Source of the DNA: Cinnamomum chago
Lineage: Eukaryota > Streptophyta > Magnoliopsida > Laurales > Lauraceae
Assembly: GCA_038049695.1 (NCBI GenBank)
Contig: CP142458.1
Span: 45,599,001 to 45,663,000, forward strand
Reading direction: 5' to 3'
DNA: 64,000 nucleotides
Shown here: in pieces, positions 9,739-42,507 of the stretch
Layout: each line of letters opens with the position of its first letter
Position numbering within the stretch: the stretch's first letter is position 1
Translations under genes and position numbers: made by a program
The notes under the pieces: generated by a model
Seen by the model: only the letters and a program-made list of their open reading frames with translations
What the model was told of the DNA's origin: nothing
The model's database searches: none

Positions 9739-9740
9739 AT

Positions 9741-15716: not shown

Positions 15717-15718
15717 AT

Positions 15719-21488: not shown

Positions 21489-23002
21489 CCTTTGGTAGTC
21501 ATTTAGGAGAGTTTATCAGCATTGATTTGTATTAATGCTCATAATGGAAGGAGTTGCAAGTTTTAATTTACTTGTTTTGTAACTCCTTTTTCTTGGCTTC
21601 TGATTGGCCGGTGGAGGATAATGGGCATTTAGTTTCCTTTAATCTCCATGATGAGGGGAGTTTCATGGTTTTAATGCCATGAATACTTGGATTTGTAACT
21701 CCCATTTGCTTGCTTTTGATTGGGCCGTTCAAAATAATGAGTTAATGACCGCATTAACTTGCCATAAACGGGTCATTTAACTTCATTAATTGATTGCCCG
21801 GGCGCTTGAAGAGTCGCGGGCCGTGCCGCGTCCTTTGGGATTCTTCTTGCGATGATCACCAATGGACCCTCATGCTATTTGATGTCGGATGGTGATCCAA
21901 TTTCAAACATTGGTTGATGTCAGCGGGCCAGCAACATCTGTCCAGTCGATTTCGCGATCGGGCGGGCAGAAAGTGTGCTTTCTTGGTTAGCCGTTTGGCA
22001 ATTTTGAGGCGTGCGATGATGATCACATGCTTTTGATGGTAGATCTGAGATGTTGGCGAAGATCAGCTGATTCCGAGCACCAAAAATCAGATTTTCAGAA
22101 AATCACAGGGGCCAATCAACTCGGAACGCGAAAGAAACCCGAAAAACGGGGTTTTTGGGCGAGGTCCGGCGACCATGGGCTTGGGTCGCCAGCGACCATG
22201 GGCCTTGGCCCATTTTTTGGCCGCCTTTCGGTCGCCATTTCTCCGCCGTTTTTCGTCCGTTTTCGCTTCTGTTTTCTTCTGCATTTTTCTTGGAATTTCC
22301 TCTCATTTATTGGTTGGATTTCTCTCAAGAAAACCTGACGAGAATCCGTGCAAATCAGATCTTAAAGTTTCCTATTTTCCGGAAAAGCCGAAGACTTTGC
22401 CATGGAGAACTGCCGATTTTTTGTCAAGCGTCGAAACTAGGTCAAACGATGTCAGAACAACCTGAAATTCGACGTGTAGCTTCTTGAGTAGTAGACGAGA
22501 CCAACCATAGGCTTTTGTTTGAGTTTTGAAGCCGTTTGGGGGCCCGCAAATGCTTGACTTGATTTCACCGCGAGGGAAATGCCGAGCTTTGACTTTCGGT
22601 CAAACGATCTCCGATTGACCTGAAATTTGATGGGTAGCTTCCTCATCAGTAGATAGGACCAACCATAGGCTTTTGTTTGAGTTTTGAAGCCATTTGGAGT
22701 CATGCAAACACTTGCCTTTATTTCACCGCGAGGGAAATGCCGAGCTTTGACTTTTGGTCAAACGATGTCCGATTGACCTGAAATTCGACATGTGACTCCC
22801 TCATCAGTAGATAAGACCAACCATAGGCTTTCGTTTGAGTTTTTGAAGCCATTTGGAGTCATGCAAACGCTTGCCTTTATTTCACCGCGAGGGAAATGCC
22901 GAGCTTTGACTTTTGGTCAAACGATGTCCGATTGACCTGAAATTCGACGGGGAGCCTACTGGAGTCATTTTGAGATGATCCACAAGCTCCGAATTGGGTG
23001 CC

Positions 23003-23007
23003 ATGTT
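23003..23007. repeat. Left target duplication ATGTT of LTR-C
   Basis: ATGTT here and at 27074-27078. A single ATGTT stands at the uninterrupted site 44925-44929 in the sister TAT1 LTR. Confidence 0.92.
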
Positions 23008-24410
23008 TGTCACGCCCCCGAACCAGAACCTTGGGGGTGGGAATGGGATTTAGCATAAATATTATATTTTTCTCCCAAGATCCGCGTGTGTGAAGACAAC
23101 ACATTCTGAATATTTTGCGGAAGCTTTCGTGGCGCTGCGACCCGGAGTCCGTGGCCATCGGATTCCGCATCGCACTCAACCTTTAGCATATAGCTATTAT
23201 ATCAAGAATCATATCAGACTGGAGTAAACCATCACAATATATTACAGAGCTGACAGTAACAGGATATTACATTCCCATATACGTTCAAGTTACAATTATC
23301 AATGTACATTAATTAAGAATCCCAATAGAAAGGCTAATAGAAGCCATACAACAATAAGCTATTAACCACGACCCAATAAATGACGTAGCTCCGATGTCAA
23401 GCTCAATGTCTACATGACATAGCCGACAAAACAACCTGCAAAACATGGCTCCACAGCCAACCAAAGCACTCATCTCGGGACGAAGAAATCTGAACCTGAG
23501 TACCAAAAGTAGTGGGTCAGACACGACGGTCTGGCAGGTGGATGAAAAGATAACAAATATACTGAAGAATAAAACATATGATAAATCATGTTATTCGATC
23601 AAATGCTGCATATAATTAAACGGGTGCAAAATCGTGGATTCGGGCAAAACATGTATTCGTTTCAAGCATGGGTAAAACATGAAGATCTAATAAAACATGT
23701 GTTCATTTACATCATCTATAATCATAGATATTTGACAATCGGGAGTTCATCTAAAACATGTATAAATATAGTGGTTTGACAAAACAACGTTCATTTGAGA
23801 CTTAAGTAAAAACATAAGTATACAACAAATCCAGTATTCATAGCAGTCTGGCAAAACCAATGTCCATTTGAAACATATGTGAAAATACGGATATTTAACA
23901 AACCGGGTGTTCGTTTAAAACAGGTGTAAACATAGGAATCTGATAGAACACGTGTCATTTGAAACATATTTCAAAGCATGGGTATTTAACAATTCGGGTA
24001 TTCATTTAAAAACAGGTATAACCATAGATATCTGACAAACCAAATGTCATTTACAACAAAGCACAGATATTTAACAATTCGGGTATTCCTTTAAAACATG
24101 TGTGATCATATAAATCTAGCGAAATCATTGATCGTTTGAAACATATGTAAAAGCATGGGTATTCACCCAACCGGCATTCATTTAAAACATGTGCGTGTAC
24201 AAGGAACATAAAACAATATAATAATAACTGAATTTACATTGGAGAATATGAACACTTGTTTAAATAACAACTTTCATGAAGGAAATGAATCATTTATTGG
24301 AAAACATATAAGCAATATAAAACATGTCGGGTATCCAAGGAATCGGGAACTGGCAAGATGGCAACCACACGAAGCTAAGTCCTCTATCACTAAAGCGATA
24401 GAGCAATAAC

Positions 24411-24546
24411 TAGGCCCTGATCTCAGTCACTCAAGGTGAGGAGAAACAGGGGATCTCATAAATACATATACATATACTAGGCACTGATCTCAGTCACTCG
24501 AGGTGAGGAGAAACAGTGGATCTCATGAATGCATATACATATACTA
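24411..24546. repeat. Two-copy ~68-bp direct repeat in LTR-C
   Basis: The block CTAGGC(C/A)CTGATCTCAG...ATATACATATACTA occurs twice in a row with few differences. Confidence 0.8.
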
Positions 24547-25451
24547 TACATGACCACGGTAGCGAGCCGGGCATCGGGGACCACAGTAGCAATCTGCGGT
24601 ATCGGGACAAGACCACGGTAATAACCGGGTAGCGGGATCCAAACTGCAGCTGGCGGGACAAGAGGGGGATCTCCAAGTCGGTGGATCAGACCAACATGGT
24701 TATCCAAGCTTAGTGGTGCCGACTCATAGGTCAAATACAATCGAGACAATGCAAGTAAATCAAGTACAAATACATAATCAAGCGGGCAAGGCGGGGGTGC
24801 TCAAGGGCACACTGACATATCATGTGGTGCAATGCACTTCGGGACAAATAACTGTTACTAGAGTAACTTCAATGCTTTCGGGAAAACAAGTCATGTAATG
24901 CAAATCTCGGGAAAGAGGTGAGACAATGAACTATAACAATTCCGGGAAAAATATCGATTTCAAGATCTATTTAAGTGAATAGGGGTCCCGTATGTCGATT
25001 ATAATAATTACTTGGTACTCCTTGAGTTAGAAGACATTCCGGGCTCCTTATGCACTTTTACTATTTTCAAAACTTAAAATGAGCTTATGGGTAGTACTAG
25101 ATGTTACAATAGCAAAAATCAAGATTATAAACGGTCCATCCTAAGTATGATGTCACTCGGAACCATCGAGCAACCTACTCAGTCACCGAAAGGAATAGAA
25201 TTCACGATACCCAAGGAAATAGACTTCGCATTTAGATATGAAGACGATATCGTGTCATTCCATCCCGTTCAAGATTGAAATAGATTGAACTTCGATGCAT
25301 TCGAACCAACCGTGAAGAGCATCGGCTCAAGATGCTCTCACATATGGTCAAATGAGTCCAAGGAGGGTAGCCAAGGTCCACAAAAAAAAAAAATATCAAA
25401 ACCCACTGGACTCAAACTGACAGGTCCGGGAACACTGAAATTTCTGTACCA

Positions 25452-25532
25452 GGGTCCGATCGATCGGCCCAAAAAGCCTTACAATTAAAGACAGGCCGAT
25501 CGATCGGCCTGTAGGTCCGATCGATCGGACCT
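25452..25532. repeat. Three CCGATCGATCGG palindromes in LTR-C
   Basis: CAGGCCGATCGATCGGCCTG (25492-25511) and AGGTCCGATCGATCGGACCT (25513-25532) are perfect 20-bp palindromes. A third with one mismatch lies at 25452-25470. A ~20-bp direct repeat beginning CAGGTCCGGGAACACTGAA flanks the group at 25422 and 25542. Confidence 0.9.
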
Positions 25533-26550
25533 GGGCGTGTGCAGGTCCGGGAACACTGAATTTTTCCTTCTTTTTTTTCCTTCCTTCCAACCCATATACA
25601 AATTGAGTTTTTCCTTACTTCAACAACATCCTAATTACAATAAAACTCCCATCAAAACTTCAATGAACATTAAATCCAAACACCTCTTTCTTCTCATTTC
25701 TCATTAAACAAAGGGAAGAATCCCAAATATACACAAGGGTCCATTTGGGCCAAAAATCTAGAGATAAATCAAGACTATTAATTCACATCTCCTTAACAAA
25801 AGATGATTTAACAAAACTCCTCAAATGAATATCAATTTCAAATCAATGCAAGCTAGTAAACATAGACATGAATGGAAAACCAACCCCATTCACTATAAAA
25901 CCATATGAGCAAACCTTGACCAAATGGGATGCATACATTTCCAAGAGATTAACAAGAGAGAAACAACCATTAAGATGCAATTTCGAAATCCATATATAAG
26001 TGACAAGGAGCATATGTGCAAACATGTATCCAATGATCAAGAACAAGAAATAAACTTAGGATTTTCTCAAAAACTTGATAACAATCAAACCATCCATTCA
26101 TCCACTTGCCTTGGGTTCCAATCTAGCAAATCAAGCTCCTAATCACCTCTCAAACTCAAGATCCACAATCTCTACAAAAACCCCCAAAACAAACCCTAAA
26201 ATGGGTTAAACCATGAAATGACAAGGAAACCTTTCAATAATCAAGGTGGAGCTTCTCTAAGGTTAGAAGATTACAAATCTAGAAGATGAAGAAGAACACT
26301 TACTTGCAAGGTCCTCTAATGGACAAGGTAAGCTCAAAGGAAGTCTTGTGGATGGAGGGTTCTCTTCACAAATGGTATCAATGGAAAGCTTGCAAGATGG
26401 GGAGAGATTGGTGATCTCCACTTCTTGATTGATGAACTCTTGGTGTGGCTTGGAGATGAAGAAGCAAGAAGAAGAAGGGAAACACAAGGGAAAACCCTAG
26501 GTTGCTGGTTTGTGCTGGAAAATGAAGATGGACAAGGGAGGAGATGGGTT

Positions 26551-26560
26551 CCTCTTATAA
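26551..26560 (-). promoter_or_regulatory. TATA box of LTR-C
   Basis: The minus strand reads TTATAAGAGG, followed by a pyrimidine-rich leader. The placement is homologous to the TATA boxes of LTR-F and LTR-D. Confidence 0.5.
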
Positions 26561-27618
26561 GCAAGTGAGGTTTGGGTCCCACAACTTAAGGGACTAGTTT
26601 GGCTGAAATCATCTAATTCGGGACCTCGGATGGATTCGATGAAGAAGGAAGAAATGATCGTCGAAATATCTAGTTTCCAAAAAGTATATGTTTCACGGAT
26701 TTCGAGAATATCGAGTTTTGGGTACAGATTTGGTGTGAAAAGACTGTTTTGCCCTCCGGGCTGGAAAAACTGATTTTCGGAGCTTCGAATGGGTACGGAG
26801 TGAACACGAAAGTTGTAGAGGTTAACAAAATAAGTCAAATGAGGCTAAAACAAGAATTATCAAGAATTTAGAATAACCTCCCAATCACGCGCAAAGTCAC
26901 TAAAAGAACCCCCAAAGGGTCCCACTAATCACAAGGCCCTCAAAATTCCCCAAAACTAGAGAAAAACCATTCTAGCTCACAAACTCAACCCAACAAATAC
27001 TAATCCCACTAAAAGGAACTAATCCACAAATAAAACAACACTAATCCAAGAGATTAGGGGTCGGGTTCTCACAATGTTCCCGGGGTGCTCCGCCGCCGGT
27101 AGGCTTGATTTTGTTTCCGAGCATCGAAACTGGGTCAAACGTCATCGGAATGACCTGAAATTTGTTGTGCAGCCCTTTGAAGGTATTTAGAAGCCGCCCA
27201 TGTGCTCTGTTTGATGAGTGACGACCTCGGTAGTTCTTGCTACCTAAGGGCTTGATTTTGCTGTTTGAGAGTTGATGGAGGGTCAAACGGTGTCGGTTTG
27301 ACTTGAAACTTGACATGTAGCCTTTCGGAGGTATTTTGAGACCATCCGTAGGCTCTGATCGAAGATTTGGGGTCTTCGACACTGTCGCCGCCGGGAGCTG
27401 CTGCTTAGCTATTGGAGAAGTGAAGCTAGGCCAAATGATGTCGGAATGGCCCGAAACTTCATGTGTACCTCTCTTTTGGCTGTTTTGAATGACCTTGCAG
27501 TTTTTGTTTGATTCTGACAAGATCTAATGCTTGAAGTGGCGCCTGCCAATTTTTGGTAGGATGCGGCTCCATGTAGCTTTTGGTGTGAAGAGGCAAAGTG
27601 ACATTTTTGGTGTCAACA

Positions 27619-27632
27619 AATGCCCCCTCGAG
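27619..27632 (-). other. TAT1 polypurine tract
   Basis: The minus strand reads CGAGGGGGCATT immediately before the 3' LTR start TGTTGACACC. Confidence 0.75.
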
Positions 27633-27873
27633 GTACAGCGACGATATAGCTTTTGCAGTCGATGTGCCTCGAAGAGAATCTTGAAGAAGAGCTTCTGACT
27701 TGACCAAGAGTCTTTGAGCATTTTTCTTTTTTTTTTATGGAGTAGCCTTTTGAGCTTCCAGGGGATTTTATGGTAGTGAGAGGGATCACGTACCATCTCA
27801 AGGCAAGATTTTGAGAATGACATTTGGATTTGGATTTGGTTTTGGTTTTTTGGTTTTGATTTTGACCTTGTGA

Positions 27874-28028
27874 CCTAACAAGCTGTATGTGGCAGGTTAG
27901 GGGGGTCAAGTTTTTGGTTTTGGTTTTGACCTTGTGACCTAACAGGCTGTACGTGGCAAGTTAGGGGGTCGGTTTTTGATTTTTGGTTTTGGTCTTGTGA
28001 CCTAACAAGCTGTATGTGGCGAGTTAGG
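27874..28028. repeat. Three ~64-bp units with CCTAAC/GTTAGG inverted repeats
   Basis: CCTAAC and GTTAGG pair across 16 bases at 27874-27901, 27938-27965 and 28001-28028. Between units are GGTTTTGGTTTT-type spacers. The array lies between the polypurine tract and the antisense gene. The remaining sequence 27633-28500 shows no gene. Confidence 0.75.
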
Positions 28029-28527
28029 GGACCATGGTTTGGTTTTTTTGGTTCACTCTTTGGGACAATTTTGGGTCCATTGGAGTGGTTTGGGCTTTTG
28101 TGGAATGTCAATTTCAAGATTTTGGCTTAATTTGGTTCATGAGGTGGGATGGTTTGGATTTTTGGAAACTCATGAAGCTTGGATTTTTGTATGGTATGGT
28201 CCAATCAACTCAAAAGAGGCATGGAACCATTTTTGTATGCTCTTGGTAAGAGAAATTTTGACTAAAAGCCACTTTTAAGTGCCTAGGTGGTCAAACCTGG
28301 CTCATATGGGCTAACCCATGGGACCCTAAGCTTTGAAAATGGCTTAGATCTCATATGGTGTCATTTTGTAAAGAATATCTGAAAATATTTCCTTTGGATA
28401 GAGAATATCTAAAAATATCTTAACTTGGAGAGAATATCTCAAATTTCCTTTTCTTTTGGGAAGGCTGCTAATTTTTAGCCCTTACCTCCTTGCTTTTCTC
28501 TTGTTTCCTCTTTTGGTTTGCTCTCTT

Positions 28528-28536
28528 CTATAAAAG
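28528..28536 (+). promoter_or_regulatory. TATA box of the TAT1 antisense gene
   Basis: CTATAAAAG on the plus strand, 130 bp upstream of the proposed start codon, followed by a pyrimidine-rich leader typical of plant transcription starts. Confidence 0.6.
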
Positions 28537-28657
28537 CAATTGAGGTTGGATCTCTTGCTCTTATTGCTTTTCTTTTTGCAAAAGTCTTCAAGAGTTGCTC
28601 TAAGATCAAGAATCCTCCTTCTTCACGAGTCTTCAAGTTTTTCTTTCTTCTCCATCC

Positions 28658-30012
28658 ATGGCTTCAAGTAAGTTTTTTTTTTTTTTTTTTACAAGAAATT
28701 CCATGTAAAGAAAGTTTCATCATTTTTTTCTTCTCTTTTTTTTTCTTTTGCACGTGTTCTTTTCTTCTTTTTTTTTTACACGCCTTTTTCTTTTTTTTTC
28801 TTTCTTCTTCTTTCTTTCTTTTCTCTCTTTTTTTTTTTTTTTTTTGAATTTGCTGACACATATTTTTGTTTTCTTGTCAGTTGACTTGCCAGAGGGTTCC
28901 GACTTCGAGCCATCTATGGATATGGCTTTTGACGATGCCTCAGATGAGTAAATAGAGACAGAAAGTACTCCACCCATCATGGAAGAAGGTATTTCATAGT
29001 GATAATCTTGACATTGATTTTTTTTTTGTTGACAAGATCATATTCATACCTTTTCTTGTGTTTTTTGCCAGCAAGTTGTGAAGCAACAAGAGAAGTTCCT
29101 TCGTCTTCCTCAGGGCCAGAGCAAGAGATGCCAGCAGCCGATCCAGAAGTAGGGGCTTCTTCTACCAGTCCCGTCATGGCAGAGGCGGGACTTTGTAATG
29201 ATATTGCTTCTTCAGTGGCTCTGATTGGAAAGAGCCTTTTGATTTCTTCTCCACCGCGGCCTGACATGGGCAGTCGGCCAACAGAGCGTGGTGAATCTCC
29301 ATCCGGACCATCCCTCCAATATGCAAAGAAGGTGTTGAAGAGTGTGCTGAGCTCATGGGTTGAAACTCTCTCTTCTGGCCATTTGGAAGCTGGTTTTGGC
29401 ATGGTCAAGCATGTACAGGACATTCTTGCTGACAGTGCAGAGGTCGGTCTGGTCATTGCAAGTGCCAAGGCCTTTGTTGATGAAGTCATTGCTTTAGGGG
29501 ACAAATGGACTGAGACCAAGAATTTCCCAAGCGGTGACTTCTTCAATGAGATGTTTTTGCAGCCATCCGGTAAGATCAAATCTGAAATGGATGAGATTTC
29601 ACGGGCTCGGAAGCAATTCGTTCGGGAGAGGAACGTTACCGAGTTGGCTATCATTGAGCTAACACAGGACCTACGCTGTCTTGATAGGGAGGTCACAGAA
29701 GCTAGGCAGCGCCTTGAGCAATTGCAAGAATAAAGTGCTGCCAAATGGACTGCCATTGTAGAAGCCCGTGCTAAAGAGGGAACTCTGACTCGCCAAGTTG
29801 AAGAAGCCGGTAGCAACCTTCAGAGAAAGACTCAGGAGTATGAGCAGTGGCAAATTCTCTGGTAAGAGCTTCCTCGTGCCGAGGATGGGTCGCGGCGTTC
29901 TACCGTATTTTATGGCAAGATCTTGAAGAAGCGCGGCCTGGAAGCTTTAGAGGCTAAGGCCAAGAGTCTGCTTGAGGAGCTGGATCTTTGGTTGAAGACC
30001 ATGCTAGACTGA
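28658..30012 (+). pseudogene. TAT1 antisense gene, three exons, three in-frame stops
   Basis: Read against the element. ATG at 28658 opens a ten-base exon ending at a GTAAGT donor (28668). Intron 1 is T-rich and ends TTGTCAG at 28880. Exon 2 is 28881-28988, followed by donor GTATTT. Intron 2 ends TTTTGCCAG at 29071. Exon 3 runs 29072-30012. Phases agree across both junctions, giving about 352 codons. TAA stops lie in frame at 28949, 29731 and 29863. The reading frame resumes unchanged after each and ends at TGA 30010. The protein has an acidic Ser/Pro/Glu-rich N-terminus, a central helical segment (LVIASAKAFVDEV) and a heptad-like charged C-terminal half. I do not recognise its family. Antisense ORFs at this place are recorded for Tat elements. 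A captured host exon set is the alternative. Confidence 0.75.
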
Positions 30013-30217
30013 GCTCTTGATTTATAACAAACTCTTTTCTTCTTTTCTCTTTTTTTTTTTTGGTACCTCTATGTAAAACATTTTTGGTACTCTGTGTACC
30101 TTTTACTTAAATTCTTTTTGATGAAAATAAGCAAAGGTTGGATGAGAATGTTTGTTTGAAAATTTTGTTCAAAAGGTTATCATTTTGTGAAAATCTTTTG
30201 TCAAAAGGGTTGTTTTG
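30013..30217. other. 3' flank of the antisense gene
   Basis: T-rich sequence with AT-rich stretches suited to transcript ending on the plus strand. No gene. Confidence 0.4.
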
Positions 30218-31000
30218 GCATGAAAGCCAGATTTTGCGGCAAAAGCCTGGGTTTTTTTTTTTTATGGCTTGAAAAGCTGAATTTTGAGATGGCATGAAAG
30301 CCGAGTTTATGGCATGAAAGCCAAAATTTTGGATGGTGTGGAAGTCGAAATTTTGAGGTGGCATGAAAGCCGATTTTGGTGGCGTGAAAGCCAAATTTTG
30401 GGATGGCATGAGAGCCAAAAATTTTTTTTGAGATGGCACGAAAGCCAAATTTTGAGGTGGCATGAAAGCCGATTTTTTTGGGGTGGCATGAAAGCCAAAT
30501 TTTGGGATGGCATGAGAGCCAAAAAAATTTTGAGATGGCATGAAAGCCGAATTTTGAGGTGGCATGAAAGCCGATTTTGGTGGCGTAAAAGCCAAATTTT
30601 GGGATGGCATGAGAGCCAAATTTTTTTGAGATGGCATGAAAGCCGAATTTTGAGGTGGCATGAAAGCCGATTTTGGTGGCGTGAAAGCCGAAATTTTGAG
30701 GTGGCATGAAAGCCAAAATTTTCTTTTTGGCATGAGAGCCAGGTTTTTTTTTTTTTTTTTGTGGCATAGAAGCCAAATTTTGGTTTTTGGCATGGGAGCC
30801 AGGTTTGTGGCATGAAGGCCAAATTTTTTTTTTTTTTTTTTTTAAAACCGAGTTTTGTTTTGTTGGCATGAAAGCCAGATTTTTTATTTTTGGCATGAAA
30901 ACTGAGTTTTTTGGCGTGAAAGCCAGGTTTTTGGTTTTTTGGCGTAAAACCGTATTTTTGGCATGGAAGCCGGTTTTTTTGGCGTGAAAGCCAGGTTTTT
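30218..31000. repeat. GGC-N6-GCC minisatellite, about 30 units
   Basis: Units GGCATGAAAGCC, GGCGTGAAAGCC, GGCATGAGAGCC and variants recur every 20-29 bp with T-rich spacers. ORFs on both strands through this block (repeated SRF/WHES or FGFHA patterns) are products of the repeat, not genes. Minisatellites in the 3' region are known for Tat elements. Confidence 0.9.
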
Positions 31001-31013
31001 GGTTTTCAAAAAT

Positions 31014-31412
31014 GCAAGTATCGACTAAAAGTCGCCTCCCTGCTGAATGGTATTGCAAGTATCGATGGAATGTCGCCTCCTTGCTCATTCGGTTGCGAGT
31101 ATCGATGGAATGTCGCCTCCTCGCGGATTTGGGTGCAAGTTTCGACTAAGCGTCGCTTCCCTGCTTTTGTCTTCAAAAATTTTGTTTTGTGGGTATCGAT
31201 GGAATGTCGCTTCCCCATGATTTTTGAATTTTGAGGTTGTTTCGAACCTTTGTTTTGCTTTTTGTTTGTTTTGAAATTTGGGTTGTGGATATCAATTGGA
31301 ACGTTGCGTCTCCACGATTTTTGAAATTTTGGGGTTTTTGGAAGTATCGAATGGGGTTCGCATCCTTCCGGTTTTGGGTTTTGCAAGTATCGACTGAACG
31401 TCGCTTCCCTGC
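31014..31412. repeat. Eight 30-bp interrupted-hairpin units with paired changes
   Basis: Units start at 31014, 31055, 31095, 31135, 31189, 31285, 31340 and 31383. Each has a 5-base outer arm, TAT (TTT once), a 4-base inner arm, a 5-base loop (6 once), the inner partner, a CNTC-type tetramer and the outer partner. Outer pairs are GCAAG/CTTGC, GCGAG/CTCGC, GTGGG/CCCAT, GTGGA/TCCAC and GGAAG/CTTCC, and in three units GCAAG/CCTGC with one mismatch. Inner pairs are CGAC/GTCG, CGAT/GTCG, CAAT/GTTG and CGAA/TTCG. Confidence 0.85.
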
Positions 31413-31790
31413 GGTTTTTGAAAAACCATTTTTTTGTTTAAAGACACGAGGGTCGTAAATTTTGACTCAAAACCATTTTGGTGGTAAAAGTCGGGGTGGA
31501 CTAGAGCTGAAATCCCTAGGTCCTGATTTTGTTTCAAACCATGAATTTAGGGTTCAAGGATCGAAAATTTTGGTCAAGTTTGGGAAGAGGCTCCTAAACT
31601 TGGATTTTTGGATTTGCTTTTTTTTTTTTGAACAATGAAACGATGAAAGAGACATTGTTTTGAGGGGTTTTTTTTTTTTAGAAATTTCAACAAGAGGATG
31701 AAAAATCCAAAAGGAGTGGGTTTGACGAGCAGATACCTAGGAATAGGCTTTGGCCATGCAGGCGTTGCTCTGACCCGAGGGAAGAAGCCT
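31413..31790 (-). other. TAT1 region between hairpin array and integrase end
   Basis: T-rich, non-coding sequence with several poly-T runs. It forms the start of the 3' untranslated region of TAT1 pol. No gene seen. Confidence 0.5.
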
Positions 31791-33060
31791 TCAAGGGTAG
31801 TACCGCTTCAAGAACTTTCCATTGATGGGGAGCATACATCTGTCACCCTCCATGTTTAGAAGAGCGTATGCGCCGTTGGAGAAGACTTTGTCGATGACGA
31901 AAGGTCCCTCCCATTTTGGTTCAAATTTGCCTTTGGATTTGTTAGCAAAAACCATTGGTCTTTTTACTGTAAGAATCAAGTCTCCCTTTTTGTAGGCACG
32001 TTGCCTGACCTTCTTATCAAAAGATCCTGCCATGCGTGCTTGGTAGAGTTTAATGCTTTGTAGAGGTTCGAGCCGTCTCTCATCGAGGTTATCCAGCTCT
32101 TAGAGTCTCAATTTGACATTACTTTCTTGCGTCATGTCATTTTGCAGAGATACCCTTAAGGAAGGAATTTGAACTTCCAAAGGGACAACAGCTTCGCATC
32201 CATAGACCAAGGACAATGGTGTGCTATGGGTTGGTCCTCGAACGGTGGTTCGATAGGCCCACAAAGCTTCAGGCAGTTTGTCGCCCCAATCTCTTTTGTG
32301 ACTAGAGACCATTTTTTTGAGAATTTTGCAGAGCGTTTTGTTGAAAGCCTCTGCTAGTCCATTCGCTGCCGGATTGTACGGAGTTGAAGGACAACTTTGG
32401 ATTTTGTATTTGTCGCAAAACCTGTAGAATCGGTGATCGCAGAACTATGGTCCGTTATCATGGACGAATCTTTTAGGTATGCCGAAGCGACAAATTATAT
32501 TAGTGCGCAAGAATTGAAGGACTGACGAGGTCTTCATTTCGTTGAGCGCGAATGCTTCTGACCACTTGGAGAAATAATCCGTAGCAGCGAAAATGAAGCG
32601 ATGACCTTTGCTTGATGGGGGAGAGATAGGACCTATGATGTCCATGCCCCAGGCTTCAAAAGGCCATGAGATTGCTGTAGGATGTAGCCATTCCGGAGGC
32701 ATGTGGACATAATCTCCATGAACTTGGCATTGTTGGCAGCGCTTAGCAAATTGCATTGCATCAGCCACCATGGTAGGCCAATAATAACCTAACCTTTTTA
32801 TCTGATCGTGAGCTTAGGCCCAGCCTGATGGGCTCCACAAAGACTAGCATGTACTTCTTTGAGTGTTTCCTCAGCCTCTTGTTGTGACAAGCAGCGTAGA
32901 AGTACTCCATTGTAGGATTTCCTATAAAGCATTTTTGAAGGAATATCCAAATGAAAGTTTGGGGTTCGCCTTTGGATGCTTACCCGCTCTTTTGGATCCT
33001 CAGGTAGGATTCCGAACATGATGTAATCAATGAATGGATCCCTCCAGTCCCCGATCAGAG
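31791..33060 (-). pseudogene. TAT1 integrase
   Basis: Integrase of TAT1, spread over frames by small indels. It joins element cDNA to target DNA. The zinc region shows RLGYYWPTMV and C-Q-Q-C (32771-32700). The catalytic core begins WGMDIIGPISPPS (first Asp), has VHDNGP (second Asp) near 32450, and PYNPAANGLAEAFNK with the catalytic Glu near 32350. The C-terminal module (FEPKWEGPFVI) ends KRYYP at 31794. No chromodomain follows, as expected for Tat. A stop after DNGP and frameshifts near 32820 and 32100 make it inactive as read. Confidence 0.88.
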
Positions 33061-33062
33061 GT

Positions 33063-34817
33063 TTAAAAAATGGAGATCCGACTTCCAACCACTTGGTGGC
33101 ATTCAGCAACTGCTTGATGTGTGTTGAGAGGAGGGAGGATCCTTTTTTGACACACTGTAACTTGCATGTTTTCCCCTTCTTGGATTGCCATAGACGCAGC
33201 AAGTCCAGCCAGGGCATCTGCACGAATGTTTTCACCTCTGAGGATGTGGGTGATGTGACAGATGTCGAACTTTTGTCGAAGCGATTGTGCCTTGTTGTAG
33301 TAAGGCAACAGATCGGACTTCCTAACTTCAAATTTCTGATTCATCTGGTTGACGATCAGTTGAGAGTCTCCAAAAGCTTCCAGCGTAGTGATGCCGGATT
33401 CAAGGGCGAGCTCCAGTCCTACGATGAGGGCTTGGTACTCAGCTGCATTGTTTGAACATGGTTCCAGTAGCGAGAATGCTTGTGGAATCATGTATTTGTC
33501 GGGACTAACAAAGAGAATGCCAATTCCCGATATTTGATTTCCCTTTTCATTTGTCCTGGTTGCGCCATCGAAGTACATGTGCCAGGAAGCATTTGATAAG
33601 GAAGTCTCCACACTGTAGACCGATTCGTCTGGGAGGTCATCCCTGAGTGGAGAATCTTTAGGCAATGGATGCTCCGCGAGGAAGTCTGCTAGCGCTTGGC
33701 CTTTGATTGCCTTTTGTGGTACATACCTAATGTCAAATTGTGACAGGAGGATGGACCATTTTGCCAGTCGGGCATTGAGAGAACATGTTTTTGTGACAAG
33801 GACCTTTAGGAGGTTGATCCACGAAATCAGGTACACTGTGTTGGATAGCAGGTAGTGACACAGTTTTTGTACGGCGAACATCACTGCCAAGCATTCTTTT
33901 TCGACTGGAGAGTAGTGATGCTCTGCACCTATCAACACGCGGCTAAGGTAATATAGAGCAGCTTCTTTTCCCTCGTCATTCTTTTGTGCGAGTAGAGCGC
34001 CTAAAGAACAGTCAAGGGCTCTTGTGTACAAGAGGAATGGTTTTCCAGTTGTGGGGGCAGCCAACACTGGAGGTTTAGTCAGGTATGACTTGATGTCCTG
34101 GAATGCGGCTTCACATTCAGCATCCCAGACAAAATTGACACCTTTCTTCATTAATCGAGAGAATGGACGGCACTTCCCTGATAGGTTGGAGATGAACCGT
34201 CGAATGTATGCCAATCTTCCTTGGAGCCCTTTTAATTGTCTTAGGGTTCTTGGAGATGGCATTTCTAGGATAGCCTTGACTTTGATGGGGTCAAGCTCTA
34301 TGCCAGCTTTCCGTACTATGAATCCGAGAAACTTACCCGATGAAACACCGAAGAAGCATTTGAGGGGATTCATTCGTAGTTTGTGTTTGCGAAGTCGGAG
34401 GAAGACTTCTCGAAGATCTTTGAGATGGTCTTCTTTTCTTTTGCTTTTGACGGCGAGGTCATCGACATAACATTCGACCGTCTTGTGCTGCATATCTTGG
34501 AATATCTTCATCATAGCCCTCTGATATGTCGCACCGGCGTTTTTCAGACCAAATGGCATGACCGTGTAGCAATACACGCCAAATGGGGTCCGAAATGCTG
34601 TGTGTTTTTCATCTTCAGGATGCATCTTTATCTGATTGTAGCCAGAGAAGCCATCCATGAATGTCATTCGCTCGAACCCACAGGTGTTGTCGATCATCAC
34701 CTCCGGTATAGGGAGCGGGAATTCATCTTTTGGGCATGCATTGTTCAGGTCTCTGTAATCAATGCAGACCCTGATTTGCCCATTTTTTTTGTCACGGGGA
34801 CGATGTTGGCCAACCAT
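33063..34817 (-). CDS. TAT1 reverse transcriptase, RNase H and second RNase H
   Basis: A 584-residue open frame. RT shows FMDGFSGYNQI (Asp 55) and the active site YVDD (117-120), with PFGLKNAGATYQRAM between them. The first RNase H (about 260-390) has lost the first catalytic Asp position (LYTRALDCSLGALL), as is usual in Tat. A second, archaeal-type RNase H follows with all four acidic residues: D417 (YFDGA), E460 (NNAAEY), D484 (GDSQL) and D534 (RADALA). This dual arrangement identifies the Tat lineage. The true start lies upstream: the frame joins the linker ORF through a frameshift at a poly-T run near 34787. A second frameshift near 33070 leads to integrase. Confidence 0.92.
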   Translation of the reverse strand: MVGQHRPRDKKNGQIRVCIDYRDLNNACPKDEFPLPIPEVMIDNTCGFERMTFMDGFSGYNQIKMHPEDEKHTAFRTPFGVYCYTVMPFGLKNAGATYQRAMMKIFQDMQHKTVECYVDDLAVKSKRKEDHLKDLREVFLRLRKHKLRMNPLKCFFGVSSGKFLGFIVRKAGIELDPIKVKAILEMPSPRTLRQLKGLQGRLAYIRRFISNLSGKCRPFSRLMKKGVNFVWDAECEAAFQDIKSYLTKPPVLAAPTTGKPFLLYTRALDCSLGALLAQKNDEGKEAALYYLSRVLIGAEHHYSPVEKECLAVMFAVQKLCHYLLSNTVYLISWINLLKVLVTKTCSLNARLAKWSILLSQFDIRYVPQKAIKGQALADFLAEHPLPKDSPLRDDLPDESVYSVETSLSNASWHMYFDGATRTNEKGNQISGIGILFVSPDKYMIPQAFSLLEPCSNNAAEYQALIVGLELALESGITTLEAFGDSQLIVNQMNQKFEVRKSDLLPYYNKAQSLRQKFDICHITHILRGENIRADALAGLAASMAIQEGENMQVTVCQKRILPPLNTHQAVAECHQVVGSRISIF

Positions 34818-35908
34818 TCAGGATGCTGTTCCTCACGGATGAAGCCAACGCTTTTGAGTTTTTGAACTTCTTGTTCAATTTTGTCCATCACGTCAGGACG
34901 GAACCTTCTTTGGCCTTGTTTGACAGGCTTGATATCTTTTTGAAGATTGAGTTTGTGGACTGCTATTTTGGGGTCTAAGCCAGGCATCTCAGCGTAAGAC
35001 CATGCAAAACAATCAACGAACTCATGAAGAAACGCGATATACTCGGGTAACTCATCATCCTTTATATTCTTGCTTATGAATACAGGATGTGGGTTATCAG
35101 GTGTTCCCAAGTCTATCTTTTGAACAGAATCTTCAGTTGGAAGGTTTGAAGGTGGTTCCTCCATAATATTTTCGGAGGCTTCCAGCCCAACAAAGCCTTC
35201 TGGAGTTCCAAAGGTATCTACAGACCACGACTCTGCTTTTGTCCATGGGTCTTCTTGATTAGTACTTTTCTCAAGATTTGCTATGAGATGGTCCCAATCA
35301 CCTGTTGAAACTAGGTCGAAGTAGGGCACTTCTTTTGGAGATGATGGTTCTTCTGGGCTAGAAAATCGTGTATCCGTATCATCGGTCAATTCCTCTTCAT
35401 CATCCGAGAAATCATACCAATTGGGTGAGCTTCCTGAATCTTTGACGGGTGACTCTTCAAAGAGATATCCGGGGAGATCGATGTCTTCATTAATATGAGA
35501 TGTTGAGGCTTGGTCGGCAAGACGACTTTGCAGCCTTTGTGTCAACTGTCTCAAGGGAGCGTCAGGATCATACCCCAGCCCATGTGAAGACTTTTCTATG
35601 TGGCGGTGGGGTTTCCAACCTTCCAGTTTACTTTTGGTCAGGGTTGGTTCCAATGGCGTGATAATACCACGGCCACCTCCCAAACCGATTGGGTTCTGAG
35701 CGTCGTAGCCCATTTTCTTCATGATAGCTTGTGCCATTGGACTATACAGGGATAGTTGAGGCATACCTTCATTTTGGAAAGGTTCAAGTGAAGAATTTGA
35801 TGAAGAAACTCCCGATTTATGGAAGAAGATTGGCTTTTCTTCTGCTGATGTTGCTGGAACAACGAAGGAAGCAGATGCCGGATCTTCTATGTCAACGGTT
35901 GTCTCCAT
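34745..35908 (-). pseudogene. TAT1 pol linker with G-patch-like segment and RT start
   Basis: A 387-residue open frame joining protease to RT. An acidic Ser/Glu-rich N-terminal half contains, near residues 56-95, a Gly-rich segment (MAQAIMKKMGYD then GLGGGRG) resembling a G-patch. The C-terminal third enters the RT N-terminus (KQGQRRFRPDVMDKI, EWLANIVPV). It ends in a wrong frame where a T run near 34787 has changed length. A G-patch binds RNA helicases or nucleic acid in other proteins and occurs in some retroelements. A role here is inference. Confidence 0.75.
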
Positions 35909-36408
35909 CGGAGTGAGAGCGGGCTAAACTTGTTGATCATCAGCTTGGCTTGACGATGTGTCGTCTTCTGGCTCTGAGTCTGAATCCGTGTCTTGCAAGA
36001 TAGACACAAAGGAGACAGCAAACTTGCCCCCAGTCTTTTGTTTTGTCTTCTTTGCTTTGGTGGTGATCACCAGAGGCTTTGAAGACTTGAGGGAGACCAC
36101 GAAGGGAGATTGATTATTCTTTTCGGTTTTGATAGAAGGTTTGTTTTCTTCCGGTGATTGCTGAGGAGCCTTGCCTTTGTCTTTCTGGAGATTTTCGACA
36201 AAGGGTGTTGTTTCTTCCTCCCTTTCTTCTTTTTCATCTTTGTACATCTGAGCATCTGCGAAATAGACTTCTTTGCCTTTGAAGGGCTTTTTTCTGCAAA
36301 CACTCGACGTATCAAGCCGTCATTGCCAACGAACTTGATGCACTGATGTAAAGTCGAAGGGACAACACCATTCTCGTCCAGGGGCGTCCGAGAAGGATGT
36401 TGTAGCAT
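35909..36408 (-). pseudogene. TAT1 post-protease linker
   Basis: Low-complexity coding sequence rich in Lys, Glu, Ser and Asp, with frames 36408-36067 and 36247-35924 overlapping through a frameshift. The second ends at a stop at 35924. Its place between protease and the G-patch segment indicates pol spacer. No domain recognised. Confidence 0.6.
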
Positions 36409-36750
36409 GAAGGGGTCTTTATTGCATAGACAGTGACCTCGGAGATAAGATCACCGATTTGCAACTTGAACCTGATTTTGCCGATCGGCCTTTGAGCGCT
36501 GCCATCATATCCAAAGATGAACACAGACGTGTGGCTCAGCTTGCTAGGCTGAATGCCCAGTTCTTCGAGTGCCGAAGTGGAGATGATGTTGAGTGCAGAA
36601 CCTGGATCGATCTGGATTCTGTGTAGTGGCACCTCTTTGATGTACCCGGTGAAGTACAGGGGTCGGTTGTGCTTTGTCTCGCCTAGCAGGAGGTCTTCCT
36701 TGGTGAAGGCGATGGTTCCACTTGCTGCTTTTTGAACCGAGAGGCATTCG
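36312..36750 (-). pseudogene. TAT1 aspartic protease
   Basis: The protease core shows IDPGSALNII, the single catalytic Asp motif of retroelement proteases in its D-x-G-S form, then a flap region (VFIFGYDGSAQRPIGKI) and ILLGRPW, the conserved end motif. The upstream part (KEDLLLGETKHNRPLYFTGYI) is in another frame, and the sequence after ILLGRPW shifts again, so at least two frameshifts break it. It would cut Gag-Pol in the particle. Confidence 0.85.
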
Positions 36751-38665
36751 ATGCAGGATCCCTCAGTTTTCTTCTTTTCTCCTTTTGAGGGAGTTTTTGA
36801 TTTTTTGACCCTATGTCCATTTCAATTTGTAGGACTTGTGGGGCATGTTTGTCGACATCCGCATCCAGCATTTGTAGTTCTGAAATGAGACTATCACGAG
36901 TCTGTGGTGACATTCGTAATAAGTCTAGGATGTGCAGACGTGCATGTATGTGTTTGAAGTGCTGAATCAAGTCGTACTTGAAAGCCTCCTTGGGGCCTGC
37001 ATTTTCATTATTCTTGCCACTAGGGGCGTTTACAGCCTGTTTTCCCGAAGGATTTACATAAGAAGCAGAAGGTTGGTTGTAGTTTTTGTGGTAATCCCGG
37101 CCAGAACGGGTACCTCTACCAACTTCAAGAGCTTCTGGAGAAGGGTCTTTGTTTGGAAGATCACCCTCGAGATCGAGGGGTTGTTCCTTCTCATTTGCTG
37201 AAGATGTCTCTGTGTCAGCATTGCCATCTTCAGTAATTGTGTTGCATGGAGCATTTTCCGGGAGCAAGTCCTGAACAGCATCCAGCAACTTTCCTTATTT
37301 ATCGAATATTTTGTCGGTCCAGACATCACCGATGAGATCGGGCATTTGGGACCAATTGACCGGATTTTCTCTGAAGAAGATTTCACTGGCTGGAATTTCT
37401 TCAAGGTGATCAGTCGGAAGAGGTTTGAGTTCCGATGTCACTGTTCCAGGAGACGAAGCCTGAGAAGGTGAGGAATTATCATCCTGAGCTATTGCATTGC
37501 AAGTAACTTTAACGGAAGATGCCTCCAAGATGAACTGTTGGGAATCAGATTCGTCCTCAGATGTAGGAGGATCATCGATCCAACAGCTTTCTTCGTTTTC
37601 CGAGGTTACCGGGGGAGATTCTTGTAGATTTTCAGGAACTTCCGGTGCTGGGTTGTGACGAAGCTGATTGATGCGACCTAGTTCTTGCTCTATAGCAAGG
37701 TGCTGCAAGATCCTTGCGTATTCATCGAGATCAGGCACGGGAGCCAAATCTTCTTCTTCGTCTGCTCCTTGTGGTTCAACATGGCTGGGTTCCACTGGAG
37801 TGTTTTCTTGAACAGCCTCTTGGTCTTCTTCATCATCAGACCAGGATCCTTGCGGCTGTAATGGGTTATACCAGATTACTGGCATAAGATGAGATTCAGG
37901 GATCCATTCCTCGTCGGAGAGATATTCTCCTGTTTTGAGGGATTCCTCCCATTCATCGATGTCACTGGCGGTGTCACTGGACTCGTATCCATCCATGGGG
38001 AATCCGACCACCGAGTTGCAAGAGTATGATGCCCCATGCATAGTTTCATCTTTGAGGTGTGGTGGCATGAAATCACCAAGAGTGAATTTTCTTGTCGCCT
38101 TTGAAGTCTTAGGAGAGGACTCTTCTGTTGTCCCCAGTAAAGCGGTAGAGGAGGTCTCTGCCTTTTCAGTGACTTCTTGCTTTTTCGGAGCTTTCTCCTG
38201 CTGTTTGAGCTTGCGGAGTTGTCTCCTGGCTTGCCTCCGCTGTCGAGCGGTTGGCTTTGTTTTGACGACCTCCCAATTTTCATCTTCTAGGATATCGGGG
38301 TGTACCCAGATGGGCTGTCCGTCTGATGTTGGATATGGAACCAACTCTTGGGACATTTGGGTCATCTTTATCACCTTGAAGGAAGTCGTGATCTTCTCTT
38401 TTGGTGATTTTTGTTTTTGTCCACACGACACCATGATGACGGAGGCAGACCCATAGTTCTTGTCGAAGGTAATGACTCCGTTTTTCCACATCTCATTTAT
38501 CTTCTCTCTCACAACAAAGCATTGACTGAGGATGCGAGACCATCTGATGGTATGGACAGTACCGAGGATCGTTGGTTTTGCCAACATCTCCTGGTCTTTT
38601 GGGGTCAGGCAAGGTGAGTTTACCGTTTGCGAGAAGTGCCCCAAAGATTTCTTCAACATCTTCAT
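36683..38665 (-). pseudogene. TAT1 gag-protease spacer
   Basis: Two open frames, 38665-37295 (456 residues) and 37288-36683 (201 residues). The first contains NEMWKNGVITFD, the continuation of the Gag zinc-region segment (CPYHQMVSHP) in the next frame, then a long acidic spacer. The second contains FKYDLIQHFKHIHARLHILDLL, the block that precedes protease in Tat polyproteins. The two frames are adjacent and separated by a stop. Most of the spacer has no recognised domain. Confidence 0.7.
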
Positions 38666-39713
38666 CGAACGGGTATTTCTTCTCTACTCGTTCTTTGAAG
38701 GCATCAGAGAGTTCAGGCTTTTTACCTGCAGCTTTGTTTTCAGCTTTCTTTGGCTGCTGAGGAGCTGACTTGGTTTGCACATTGAGAACCTCTTTTTTCT
38801 TTGGTTTTGAGGTTGCAATGGCAGTCGGCTCTTTCTTTAATGATTTCTGACTGTTGAGGTCTTTGATCACCATTTTAGCTTCCATAGCTGCTTCCAGGAG
38901 TTCTCCCAGGTTCTTTGATTTGTTGTCGATGATCATGGAGCGGATTCTTGCTCTCATGTTGTTTCGGAAGATGTCGACCAGTGACGCTTGTGGCATTACA
39001 TCGGAGCATTTGTATGCCATTGCCTTCCACTTGTGAATGAAGTCATATGTTGACTCATTCTCTCCCTGTTTTAGGCTGCAGAGCTGAGCCATAGTAACAT
39101 GATGATCCTCGCCTTTGAAGTGGGTTAGGAAGCATGTCTCCAGCATGGCCCAATTTTGAATGGAATCCTCCGGCAGAGTGGAGTACCAATCAAAGGTCGT
39201 ACCTTTTAGGGTACTTGCAAAGAGGCGGATTTTGAGGGCATCTTGATCCGCAATAGCTCCCGTCAGGATCTTGAAATGGATGACGTGCTGTCTGGCTGAA
39301 CCTTTCCCCGTATATGTTTGGAGAGTAGGTTTCTTGAATTTTGTAGGGAACGGGACCGAGTCCATCCACAAGGGATATGGTGGCTTGATCCCATACTCCT
39401 TTAGTGTATCCTCTTCTTTTGCTTTGGCGAGGATATCGTCAACGTCCTTTTTGGTAAGGGCGCGTGACTCACTGTTTTCCGCATTTTCCTCGTCGCCTTG
39501 ATGGCTCGGAGGAGCTTCATTGTTTTGTGGACGCTGAAGATTGAGAATTAGGTTCTCTATTAGAGTCTCTATCCTCTGCTGCCCTTGCTCCAGCTGCTGG
39601 ATGCGTGCGGTTACGTCATCATGCGGCGGAGGTTGCTCAGCATTTGTGACCAGGACGTTCATTCCTCGAGAGTTGAATGAAGATATTGTCTTGGTGACTG
39701 AGCTAGAGCTCAT
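38493..39713 (-). CDS. TAT1 Gag
   Basis: A 406-residue open frame. A short coiled coil (RIQQLEQGQQRIETLIENL, about 37-55) is followed by the retrotransposon Gag domain (TYTGKGSARQHVIHFK, then LKGTTFDWYSTLPEDSI and FKGEDHHVTMAQLCSLKQGENESTYDF split over about 135-250). The C-terminal part is Lys-rich. It ends early: the CPYHQMVSHP segment is followed by a frameshift near 38530. The start is chosen because its ATG overlaps the stop of the upstream ORF. It forms the particle and packages element RNA. Confidence 0.87.
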   Translation of the reverse strand: MSSSSVTKTISSFNSRGMNVLVTNAEQPPPHDDVTARIQQLEQGQQRIETLIENLILNLQRPQNNEAPPSHQGDEENAENSESRALTKKDVDDILAKAKEEDTLKEYGIKPPYPLWMDSVPFPTKFKKPTLQTYTGKGSARQHVIHFKILTGAIADQDALKIRLFASTLKGTTFDWYSTLPEDSIQNWAMLETCFLTHFKGEDHHVTMAQLCSLKQGENESTYDFIHKWKAMAYKCSDVMPQASLVDIFRNNMRARIRSMIIDNKSKNLGELLEAAMEAKMVIKDLNSQKSLKKEPTAIATSKPKKKEVLNVQTKSAPQQPKKAENKAAGKKPELSDAFKERVEKKYPFDEDVEEIFGALLANGKLTLPDPKRPGDVGKTNDPRYCPYHQMVSHPQSMLCCEREDK

Positions 39714-40769
39714 TCTTTTAGATGAAGACTCGAAGAGTGGTCACTCCAATGTCCTTGGCTTGAAGGAGTGGGAGAGTTTTCTTTATGTCTTCGTGTCCGG
39801 GAGACGCTGCGAGTCACCGGACGCCTGACATGGATTTTTGTTGCTGACTTCTGACGTCTTCTGGTCTTGCCAACCATATGGACAGCAGCAACTTGGTCGG
39901 GTCTTTCTTTTTCGACCCATTTTTGGGAGACCTGAAGTGCAGAATCTTGGGTTCTTTGCTTCTCTAGTCTCTTTTGTCGATATGCCGCACGGCGGCGCAT
40001 ACGACGAGCGATTTGAGCTTCAGTTAGCTCTGGCTGTGCTCTGGCAATGAAGGACGTAGTCCCTGGCGCGCAGCAGCCGAGCTTGTCTTTTTTTGAAGAC
40101 TGGCAGGGACAGGATCTGGACGCGGTCCTTGGCCTGTCGTAGCGAAGCTTTGAATTTTGCGAGTTCGGCTCCTGTTGAGAGGAAGGGTCGACTCGCAGGA
40201 ATGTAGGCCTTGGCAGGTTCTTGCGGAGGCCTGATGATGCATGACTTGATTTTGGGCTTGTAGGAGCAAGCCGGCTCATGCTGAGTTGGTTTTGTTTGGC
40301 GGAGGGTAGGTTTCTCCTCTTTCATGTAAGCAAGAGGGTAGAACCGGTTCTCCTTGAGAGGGGCCAGGTATGCTGGCTTTGCTGATGTTTGTGACCTTCG
40401 CTGTTTGGGTGAAGGTCTTAGGGACCAAGTCTTTGAGCAGACCTGGTTTCTTGTAGGTTGAGGCTTCGCAGGAGCGCTACGGGCCTCAGGCTTCTTGATG
40501 ATCGCCCTTGGTATCACTGTAGTGATACGTTGAGGGGCGGTTCTCTGCTTCTTGGCAGGTGCGGTTTCTTCTACGGGTAGTGGGAATGGTCCCAATGACC
40601 CGAAGACAATGGTCTGGGGAGTAGAGTTTGACCCGGTGTCTTTTGAGTTGCCGAGGGAGATGACGCTTCGGCAGCTGGCAGGGCGCTTGTAAGTGCGCTT
40701 GGTTTGTTTGTCTTGGAGCATGAGCTGGTACTTGTTCTCATCAAAGGTGATGGTTAATGAAGCTGCCAT
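39710..40769 (-). pseudogene. TAT1 ORF upstream of gag (ORF1)
   Basis: Starts MAASLTITFDENKY at 40769 and continues in a frame ending at 40020. A frameshift between 40279 and 40020, probably at a T run near 40083, leads to the frame ending at 39710. The joined product would be about 350 residues, Lys/Arg/Pro/Gln-rich with a very basic Arg-rich segment (RRMRRRAAYRQKRLEK) in the C-terminal half. The stop codon overlaps the gag ATG as ATGA. An extra ORF ahead of gag is known in Ogre-type Tat elements. I recognise no domain. The basic segment suggests nucleic-acid binding (inference). Confidence 0.7.
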
Positions 40770-42507
40770 TGTTAGTTTTTGGAAAACTTCTGAAACAAGA
40801 CCATATCCATTAGTAATCACAAGAATATGGTGATCATAAATGGAAAATCCTATGGTTTCGCCTCTTCAAGTCGCCCGAGGGGACATGGCCCAGCCCAAGC
40901 AACATGAGGAAGGCAGAAAAGCCATAGAGGGCACAATTGTTCTAAACGCAGGTAGGGTTAGCTCAGAATGAGCGTCCCAGTGACTGCTAGAAGCATTTGT
41001 GAACCTTAATTCAAATTACCGAGAAGCAAAGCTCACTCAAGGTAAAATGATATAAGGTTGAGATACAAATGTGTCGGTTGCGAATACAGTAGACCCAAAA
41101 GGGCGTACTAGCACCGCTAGGCACAAATGTTGCAAATCGCATCCTTGGAAAGGACACGAGATGAGATTTTTGAAAGGTCAAGATTGGATTCATAGAAGAG
41201 AGAAAATGTTATTCCATTCTGAGAATGAGCTCAACATTTCCGCGAGCTCGAAATCCTGAAAGGGAAGGAACCAAGATTTCTCAAGTGTGAATCCAAAAGT
41301 GACGGAAGTTTTTTTTTTTTTTTGTTTTAAAAGTGTCAAGATTGGACTTTATAGAAGAGAGCAAATGGTATTCCAATCCGAAAATGAGCTCAACATTTCT
41401 GCGAGCTCGAAAGTCCGAAAAGGAAGGAACCAGGATTTCTCAAATATAAATCCAAAAATGATAGAAGTTTTTTTTTTTGAAGATTTAAAAAAAAAAAAAG
41501 AAAAGAGTTCACATAGATCTCCAATTCGATCTTATGAAACCTCAGTTGATAGATCAGCCCCCAGGTAAGGGTAGGATTACTTAATGAACCCGTTTGGAGG
41601 ACCCTTGCCTAGAACAGTCTAGCTGTCTCCACACTCTGGACAAGGCTTTTCTTAGATCCACTTTGGTCAAAGAACGCAATTGGTACAACCTTAGTGGTTT
41701 TTTTTTTTGAAAGATTTTTTTTTTATGGATTCATAGAAGAGAGCGAATGGTGTTCCATTCCGAAAATGAGTTCAACATTTCTGCGATCTCGAAGTCCGAA
41801 AAGGAAGAAGCCAAAGTTTCTCAACTTAAACCCAAAAGGGAGAAATCTGAAGTTTTTTTTTTTAAATCGATTTTTTTTTGTGGATTCATAGAAGAGAGCG
41901 AATGGTGTTCCATTCCGAAAATGAGTTCAACATTTCTGCGATCTCGAAGTCCGAAAAGGAAGAAACCAAAGTTTCTCAACTTAAACCCAAAAGAGAGAAA
42001 TCTGAAGTTTTTTTTTTAAATCGATTTTTTTTTTTGGATTCATAGAAGAGAGCGAATGGTGTTCCATTCCGAAAATGAGTTCAACATTTCTGCGATCTCG
42101 AAGTCCGAAAAGGAAGAAACCAAAGTTTCTCAACTTAAACCCAAAAGAGAGAACTCTGAAGTTTTTTTTTTAAATCGATTTTTTTTTGTGGATTCATAGA
42201 AGAGAGCGAATGGTGTTCCATTCCGAAAATGAGTTCAACATTTCTGCGATCTCGAAGTCCGAAAAGGAAGAAACCAAAGTTTCTCAACTTAAACCCAAAA
42301 GAGGGAAATCTGAAATTTTTATAAATCAGATTTTGTTTCTTTTTGAGAATTTTTTTTTTAGAAACAAGAAAGACTGGAAATAAACTCAAAAGAAGAAATT
42401 TCCAAGAATCCCATCTCATGTGTTTTTTTTTTAGATGCAAGATCCAACATAGGCCACCAACTAAAAAGGAGCCAAAGAATCCAAGCATGGTGTTCTCAAA
42501 TGAACAA
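40770..42507 (-). other. TAT1 long 5' leader
   Basis: 1.7 kb between primer site and ORF1, without a credible gene. It holds the ~154-bp array described separately and several poly-T runs. Confidence 0.7.
41170..42330. repeat. ~154-bp tandem repeats in TAT1 5' leader
   Basis: Four close copies carry GAATGGTGTTCCATTC, a perfect 6-bp hairpin, at 41745, 41900, 42054 and 42208 (spacing 154-155). Two more diverged copies begin near 41180 and 41340. Units are separated by poly-T runs of variable length. ORFs in the array are repeats of one another. Confidence 0.85.

Follow-up and report, generated by a model that had tools for sequence, protein, structure and literature searches.

The window, a stretch of 64,000 nucleotides from Cinnamomum chago (contig CP142458.1), carries on its minus strand an LTR retrotransposon with a gene of opposite polarity inside it, and the features that matter here are, in the sense order of the element:

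20636..45469, minus strand: whole LTR retrotransposon, with a 5-bp target duplication (GATTT)
42530-45469, minus strand: 5' LTR, 2,940 bp
33063..34817, minus strand: reverse transcriptase, RNase H and additional RNase H (RVT_3)
31800..33060, minus strand: integrase, ends approximate, frame broken in the window copy
31014..31412, minus strand: whole array of eight hairpin units
30217..30997, minus strand: short-hairpin array adjoining the 30-nt array, in sense YGGC-(mostly UUUCAU)-GCCA
28529..30012, plus strand: antisense gene; its TATA-like box and introns were identified by eye
20636-27617, minus strand: 3' LTR, interrupted at about 23008-27073 by an insertion

The domains RVT_1, RT_RNaseH and then RVT_3 lie within one ORF, with the integrase downstream in sense (rve and H2C2 were detected on one of the two open integrase pieces scanned) and gag upstream of the array. 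As judged from domain content, this order fits a Tat-clade Ty3/gypsy retrotransposon. An additional RNase H (aRH), a hallmark of the Tat clade that in Ogre and Retand sits between RH and INT (PMC6317226), is present in the window element, as is a Retand hallmark, the antisense ORF between pol and the 3' LTR. The best matches of the RT ORF are Persea americana proteins, three of the four best at 88-90% identity and the other at 80%. Outside the element, a tandem repeat occupies 3762-17595; its period is about 5,978 bases, and 3762-11620 matches 9740-17595 at 99.86%.

The antisense gene runs towards pol and is interrupted by stops in the window copy, and the named relatives of its ORF are nearly all hypothetical proteins of Persea. 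At their N-termini, the Persea relatives P0012, P0046 and P0048 have an arginine-rich stretch (RKSKRRRGQRRSKRQ or similar); a tblastn search of the window gave no match to it. The short-hairpin array, which directly follows the 30-nt array in sense, has 28 motif matches, with 26 exact GGC-N6-GCC matches in 30180-31010. The local-fold z of that interval is -7.2 in sense and -2.9 in plus, and pairing above 0.5 is predicted for 22 of the 26 short hairpins in sense RNA and for 12 in plus RNA (7 with a span limit). The C-terminus of P0048 weakly matches (E 0.03 to 5.6) plus-strand readings of this array, which hints that it may also be present in elements of Persea. Both LTRs contain five hairpins of the form YGCC-UUYYAC-GGCA, at 42775-42893 and 20880-20998, in which the loop resembles that of the 3' short hairpins and the G/C stem is flipped.

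The 30-nt array lies downstream of pol and consists of eight hairpin units of 30-31 nt, its sense RNA being that of the minus strand. Read in sense, each unit runs through a 5-bp outer stem, GANG, an inner CRAN, the apical loop, NUYG, AUA and back into the outer stem; the inner stem has 3-4 bp, CRA(N)/(N)UYG, the internal loop sets GANG opposite AUA, and the apical loop measures 5-6 nt in the window units, with 5-7 nt given for the array overall. The units, all on the minus strand, are:

31383..31412: U8, first in sense, outer arms GCAGG/CUUGC in the window
31340..31369: U7, outer GGAAG/CUUCC, inner CGAA/UUCG
31285..31315: U6, 31 nt with a loop of 6, outer GUGGA/UCCAC, inner CAA/UUG
31189..31218: U5, AUGGG/CCCAC in the window, GUGGG/CCCAC being commoner in other arrays
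31135..31164: U4, GCAGG/CUUGC, with an internal-loop change private to the window copy
31095..31124: U3, GCGAG/CUCGC, fourth pair A-U or G-U (sense) among near copies
31055..31084: U2, GCAAG/CUUGC
31014..31043: U1, GCAGG/CUUGC, with one G-U in sense

A sequence-only reading of this DNA had described eight hairpin units at this place, and their arms, internal loops and loops were found where it put them. Its 30-bp unit and 5-base loop hold generally and fail for U6, in whose inner stem an A-U pair also stands at the position of G-C in the other units. The deviating internal loop TTT of unit 4 (plus strand; AAA in sense) is private to the window, TAT being found in 20 of 20 near copies. Searched against the 64-kb window with E values up to 10 allowed, a model built from the eight units matched those eight only. 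No match to Rfam 15 reached its gathering score in 27600-33000; three fell below it, and the match overlapping the array was Arthropod_7SK (14 of 44 bits, E 1.1, below gathering score). A pattern scan of IMG/VR gave single matches in 10 stretches, which were attributed to chance. A coding role of the array was set aside, although open frames span it on both strands, because near copies have indels in the spacers and the unit spacing is not in multiples of three.

Within the window array, the 72 paired cells comprise 64 Watson-Crick pairs and, read on the plus strand, five G-T and three A-C, the A-C cells being G-U in minus-strand RNA; the paired fraction is 93.1%. Two-sided changes occur at six of the nine pairs and in 11 cells. 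In 500 column shuffles, none matched the paired fraction, the two-sided pairs (6), the two-sided cells (11) or the covariation score; the observed number of further pair types was attained in 171 of 500, so that this measure is uninformative. When whole 3' arms were permuted among the units, 24 of the 40,320 arrangements attained the outer pairing and 720 the inner pairing, and pairing fell to 18-42% when the partner was shifted by 1-3 columns. Inner pair 4 is unpaired in sense, and T-G on the plus strand, in four of the eight window units. The claim that the arms vary together while pairing is kept is thus borne out by these counts.

The comparison was then extended to other copies, all from the one genome (1.06 Gb searched, 14 contigs). 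The 40 closest of 1,735 first-look candidates were scored and share 97-100% identity across the whole query, which marks them as a young burst. In 21 near copies (20 plus the window), the minor stem letter occurs at U3, U5 and U6 in 10, 8 and 5 copies, respectively, and at one stem position of U5 and of U6 the letter that makes a Watson-Crick pair is found in 13 and 16 of the 21. Older copies were found by patterns in which one arm was left free, with 30 loci fetched per pattern; one pattern gave 66 matches against 0 for its reversal, and a second gave 82 against 0. The sample of copies is not random, because it combines the 40 closest copies with pattern copies that had to have one intact core. 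A set of 49 distinct arrays with 426 units remained after removal of L046 and L056, duplicate arrays of L045 and L055. A set of 73 arrays (72 distinct sequences) remained after removal, in addition to these two, of L069 (no array), L071, L074, L083 and L089 (duplicates) and L072 (fewer than five units). An extra unit that other arrays have between U7 and U6 was left out of the counts.

The commonest outer-arm pairs in the 49 arrays are GCAAG/CUUGC (46 arrays), GGAAG/CUUCC and GUGGA/UCCAC (38 each), GCAGG/CUUGC (36), GUGGG/CCCAC (28), GCGAG/CUCGC (19) and GCGGG/CUCGC (18), and all seven form complete stems in sense, with a single G-U in two cases. Half of the 20 arm pairs that occur in at least three arrays are mismatched, four of these 10 being of the kind selected by the search pattern, four mismatched at the end pair and two mid-stem; the rarer arm pairs have at least one mismatch in 65 of 85, as decay would give. 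Free loss of pairing in other copies had been named beforehand as the observation that would speak against a selected structure; such loss does occur in single copies, where it looks like decay after insertion, and the commonest arm pairs stay paired. At U8, other arrays have GCGGG/CUCGC or GCGAG/CUCGC against GCAGG/CUUGC in the window family, a two-sided change between A-U and G-C; we claim no intermediate for this pair 3, since the path runs via G-U in one tree and via A-C in the other. Copies were also chosen by an integrase-end motif (1,445 genome matches) instead of by hairpin letters. This non-random sample comprised eight stretches picked for varied motif letters among the 100 matches listed, plus L100, and eight of its nine distinct copies have the array, with at least six units each; the ninth, L101, is of a different family and lacks it.

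To separate evolution while the element was spreading from changes that are mostly decay after insertion, changes on internal branches were compared with those on terminal branches. The tree of the 73 arrays was built only from columns outside the units, the outer-stem counts exclude columns used for the selection of copies, and the spacer and flank counts exclude columns in which more than about half of the arrays lack a letter. In the 49 arrays, internal/terminal changes number 108/290 in spacers and 640/1486 in flanks. Against the spacers, inner pairs 1-3 have 5/94 (Fisher p 3.7e-7), the fixed internal-loop bases 2/51 (p 5.4e-5) and the outer stem 23/125 (p 0.0047), with 1/37 for inner pair 4, 4/20 for the variable loop base and 17/73 for the apical loop. 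The 73 arrays give 17/148 for inner pairs 1-3 against 168/472 for spacers (p 6.4e-6), 10/91 for the fixed internal loop (p 2.3e-4) and 33/193 for the outer stem (p 3.3e-4), with 10/29 for the variable loop base. Constraint at inner pair 4 is not significant there (10/53, p 0.094), and the apical loop seems constrained (20/119, p 0.003), with p 0.76 at clades of at least 5; the flanks (1103/2083) differ from the spacers (p 3.4e-5). On internal as against terminal branches, inner pairs 1-3 and the internal loop are thus much less changed than the spacers, and so, to a lesser degree, are the outer stems. CpG decay may inflate the terminal counts of the stems, yet their internal changes per column are low too (inner pairs 1-3 0.35, internal loop 0.21, outer stem 0.52, apical loop 0.49, spacers 0.88; 73 arrays).

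These counts bear on two explanations that would do without selection. If the array were the product of plain tandem duplication of a chance palindrome, the likeness of its units would reflect ancestry only, and it is true that TRF calls parts of the region a tandem array and that, according to PMC7004042 and PMC11963269, repeat arrays readily arise in Tat 3' regions. Under duplication alone, however, arm letters would not be expected to differ while pairing stays, and the stems and the internal loop change less than the spacers on internal branches, the opposite of what it predicts. The arms also stay tied to unit position across arrays, which means that homogenisation is not seen, and we consider this explanation very improbable. 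The other is arm-templated correction of imperfect palindromes, or template switching, which makes arms match without selection, would yield two-sided changes and could operate during reverse transcription, outside the view of a test on inserted copies. In inserted copies, however, mutated arms were re-paired in 1 of 61 units: pair 2 mutants are unpaired in 29 of 30 distinct units (34 rows) and pair 3 mutants in 31 of 31 (35 rows), several of the latter being one-base deletions that shift the arm; one unit is common to both sets, and L069 is a lone match outside an array. Frequent correction of arms at the DNA level is therefore not seen in inserted copies. Template switching should moreover erase the internal loop, which is unpaired and yet ranks with the parts that vary least. 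We regard template switching as unlikely, if somewhat less so than duplication. The best reading of the comparison between copies is selection on the hairpin in replicating copies, acting on the fold and not just on the letters. The sequence-only reading, too, had preferred a selected structure over simple duplication, and both the covariation in other copies and the branch test support that preference.

The next consideration is which strand carries the structure. In silico, the sense RNA of 31010-31420 is more stable than its shuffles (z -3.0; local-fold z -4.7), the plus RNA having z +0.9 and local-fold z -0.1. The mean pairing probability of the outer arms in context is 0.66 in sense (0.73 with a span limit) and 0.22 in plus (0.35 with the limit); U3 and U5 are poor folders in sense (outer 0.20-0.43), and U2 and U5 good ones in plus (0.67-0.86). 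Seven consecutive sense segments from 30000 to 31749, in 250-base steps, have z of -3.3 to -4.5, and sense structure of equal strength is also predicted in other parts of the element, coding sequence among them. The ORF region upstream of gag, at 40000-40749, has a sense local-fold z of -4.5 to -5.8 and contains short two-copy direct repeats only. Wobble pairs had been said at the outset to leave the strand undecided, and they still do: on internal branches, mid-stem changes go through G-U in 7 cases against A-C in 2 (p 0.30), and those at stem ends in 0 against 5. On the folding predictions, the sense (minus-strand) RNA is favoured as the structured strand.

The stem-end changes, being G-T on the plus strand, together with inner pair 4, which is T-G there, and the position of the array about 1 kb downstream of the antisense stop codon, would suit a selected structure in the antisense (plus) transcript, where it would serve the antisense gene as 3' untranslated region or as end signal. 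The plus RNA is predicted mostly to fold otherwise (outer pairing 0.22-0.35, local z about 0), and we think this placement improbable, though the least so of the alternatives weighed here. One could also envision a double-stranded DNA site, in the form of a CGA-N7-TCG dyad recognised by a dimeric protein of the host or of the element, given that constancy is highest in the inner CGA/TCG and in the internal-loop letters beside it; such a site would have no need for the outer five pairs to covary, and it appears about as doubtful as plain duplication.

Our main interpretation, to which we give a probability of roughly 0.6, is that the genomic RNA (sense, minus-strand) carries the array in its 3' noncoding region as a cis-acting RNA element. 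Eight to ten hairpins would be displayed among A/C-rich, poorly pairing linkers, and the outer stem, whose letters could change freely as long as pairing holds, would support the near-invariant GANG/AUA loop and the near-fixed inner stem. The constant internal loop and inner stem would form a putative protein-docking site, and reiteration of that site would let several protein molecules occupy one RNA. By analogy with retroviruses, the ligand would most likely be the Gag of the element, in packaging or assembly; the product of the antisense gene, or a host factor for export or stability, would be less likely. No CCHC knuckle was found in the minus-strand frames of the window copy, which leaves Gag as the binder unsupported. 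The hairpins would then be reiterated protein-docking sites with a role, perhaps, in packaging or export.

It is tempting to extend this argument to the Tat 3' repeat arrays, whose origin and function are stated to be unknown (PMC11963269) and which, according to the accessible part of PMC7004042, seed satellite DNA. Such arrays might, in this lineage if not beyond it, be reiterated protein-docking RNA, with several classes of hairpin (the 30-nt units, the YGGC-UUUCAU-GCCA units and the LTR units) displayed on the genomic RNA and read by an element-encoded protein, with the logic of a viral packaging or export element, a generalisation that we offer as speculative and regard as less likely than not. 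A constrained RNA structure in even one array would give a concrete, testable function to a part of the element termed hypervariable, and the comparison of internal with terminal branches is applicable to any high-copy retrotransposon family.

Retroviral packaging and export elements such as Psi and the RRE are structured cis-acting RNAs with repeated protein sites. The array would work similarly, by analogy, and is unrelated to them in position, sequence and ligand. Closer relatives are found among the plant elements. In the Retand lineage, too, the interval from pol to the 3' LTR contains repeat arrays and an antisense gene (PMC11963269); in the survey of that lineage, a TRP28 (PF04195) antisense ORF was present in 97% of clusters and LTRs measured 315-1,194 bp, whereas the window element has an LTR of 2,940 bp and no detected TRP28, PF04195 having no match in its antisense ORF (E up to 0.001) or in nine relatives (E up to 1). 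A plant mobile domain, which the accessible part of PMC6317226 reports in an extra ORF of 57% of Ogre elements and which is thus not universal in Ogre, was absent from the 10 ORFs scanned of the broken window copy. Concerning structure, the accessible texts of PMC11963269, PMC7004042 and PMC3305785 nowhere use the terms hairpin, stem-loop or secondary structure (palindrom appears twice in PMC11963269, in a reference title), and among the papers listed by the literature searches no title or opening of an abstract reports hairpins in the 3' region of a plant retrotransposon, an earlier mention being possible in Macas et al. 2009. Repeat arrays in Tat 3' regions are already known, and relative to the papers searched the hairpin structure appears to be the new aspect. 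As described in PMC11963269, PMC7004042 and PMC3305785, the 'hypervariable' 3' regions of Ogre, Retand and Gmr9/GmOgre resemble that of the window element in having arrays between pol and the 3' LTR, with several kinds of repeat side by side; in contrast to those arrays, the units here differ from one another, keep their fold and change less than the spacers between them.
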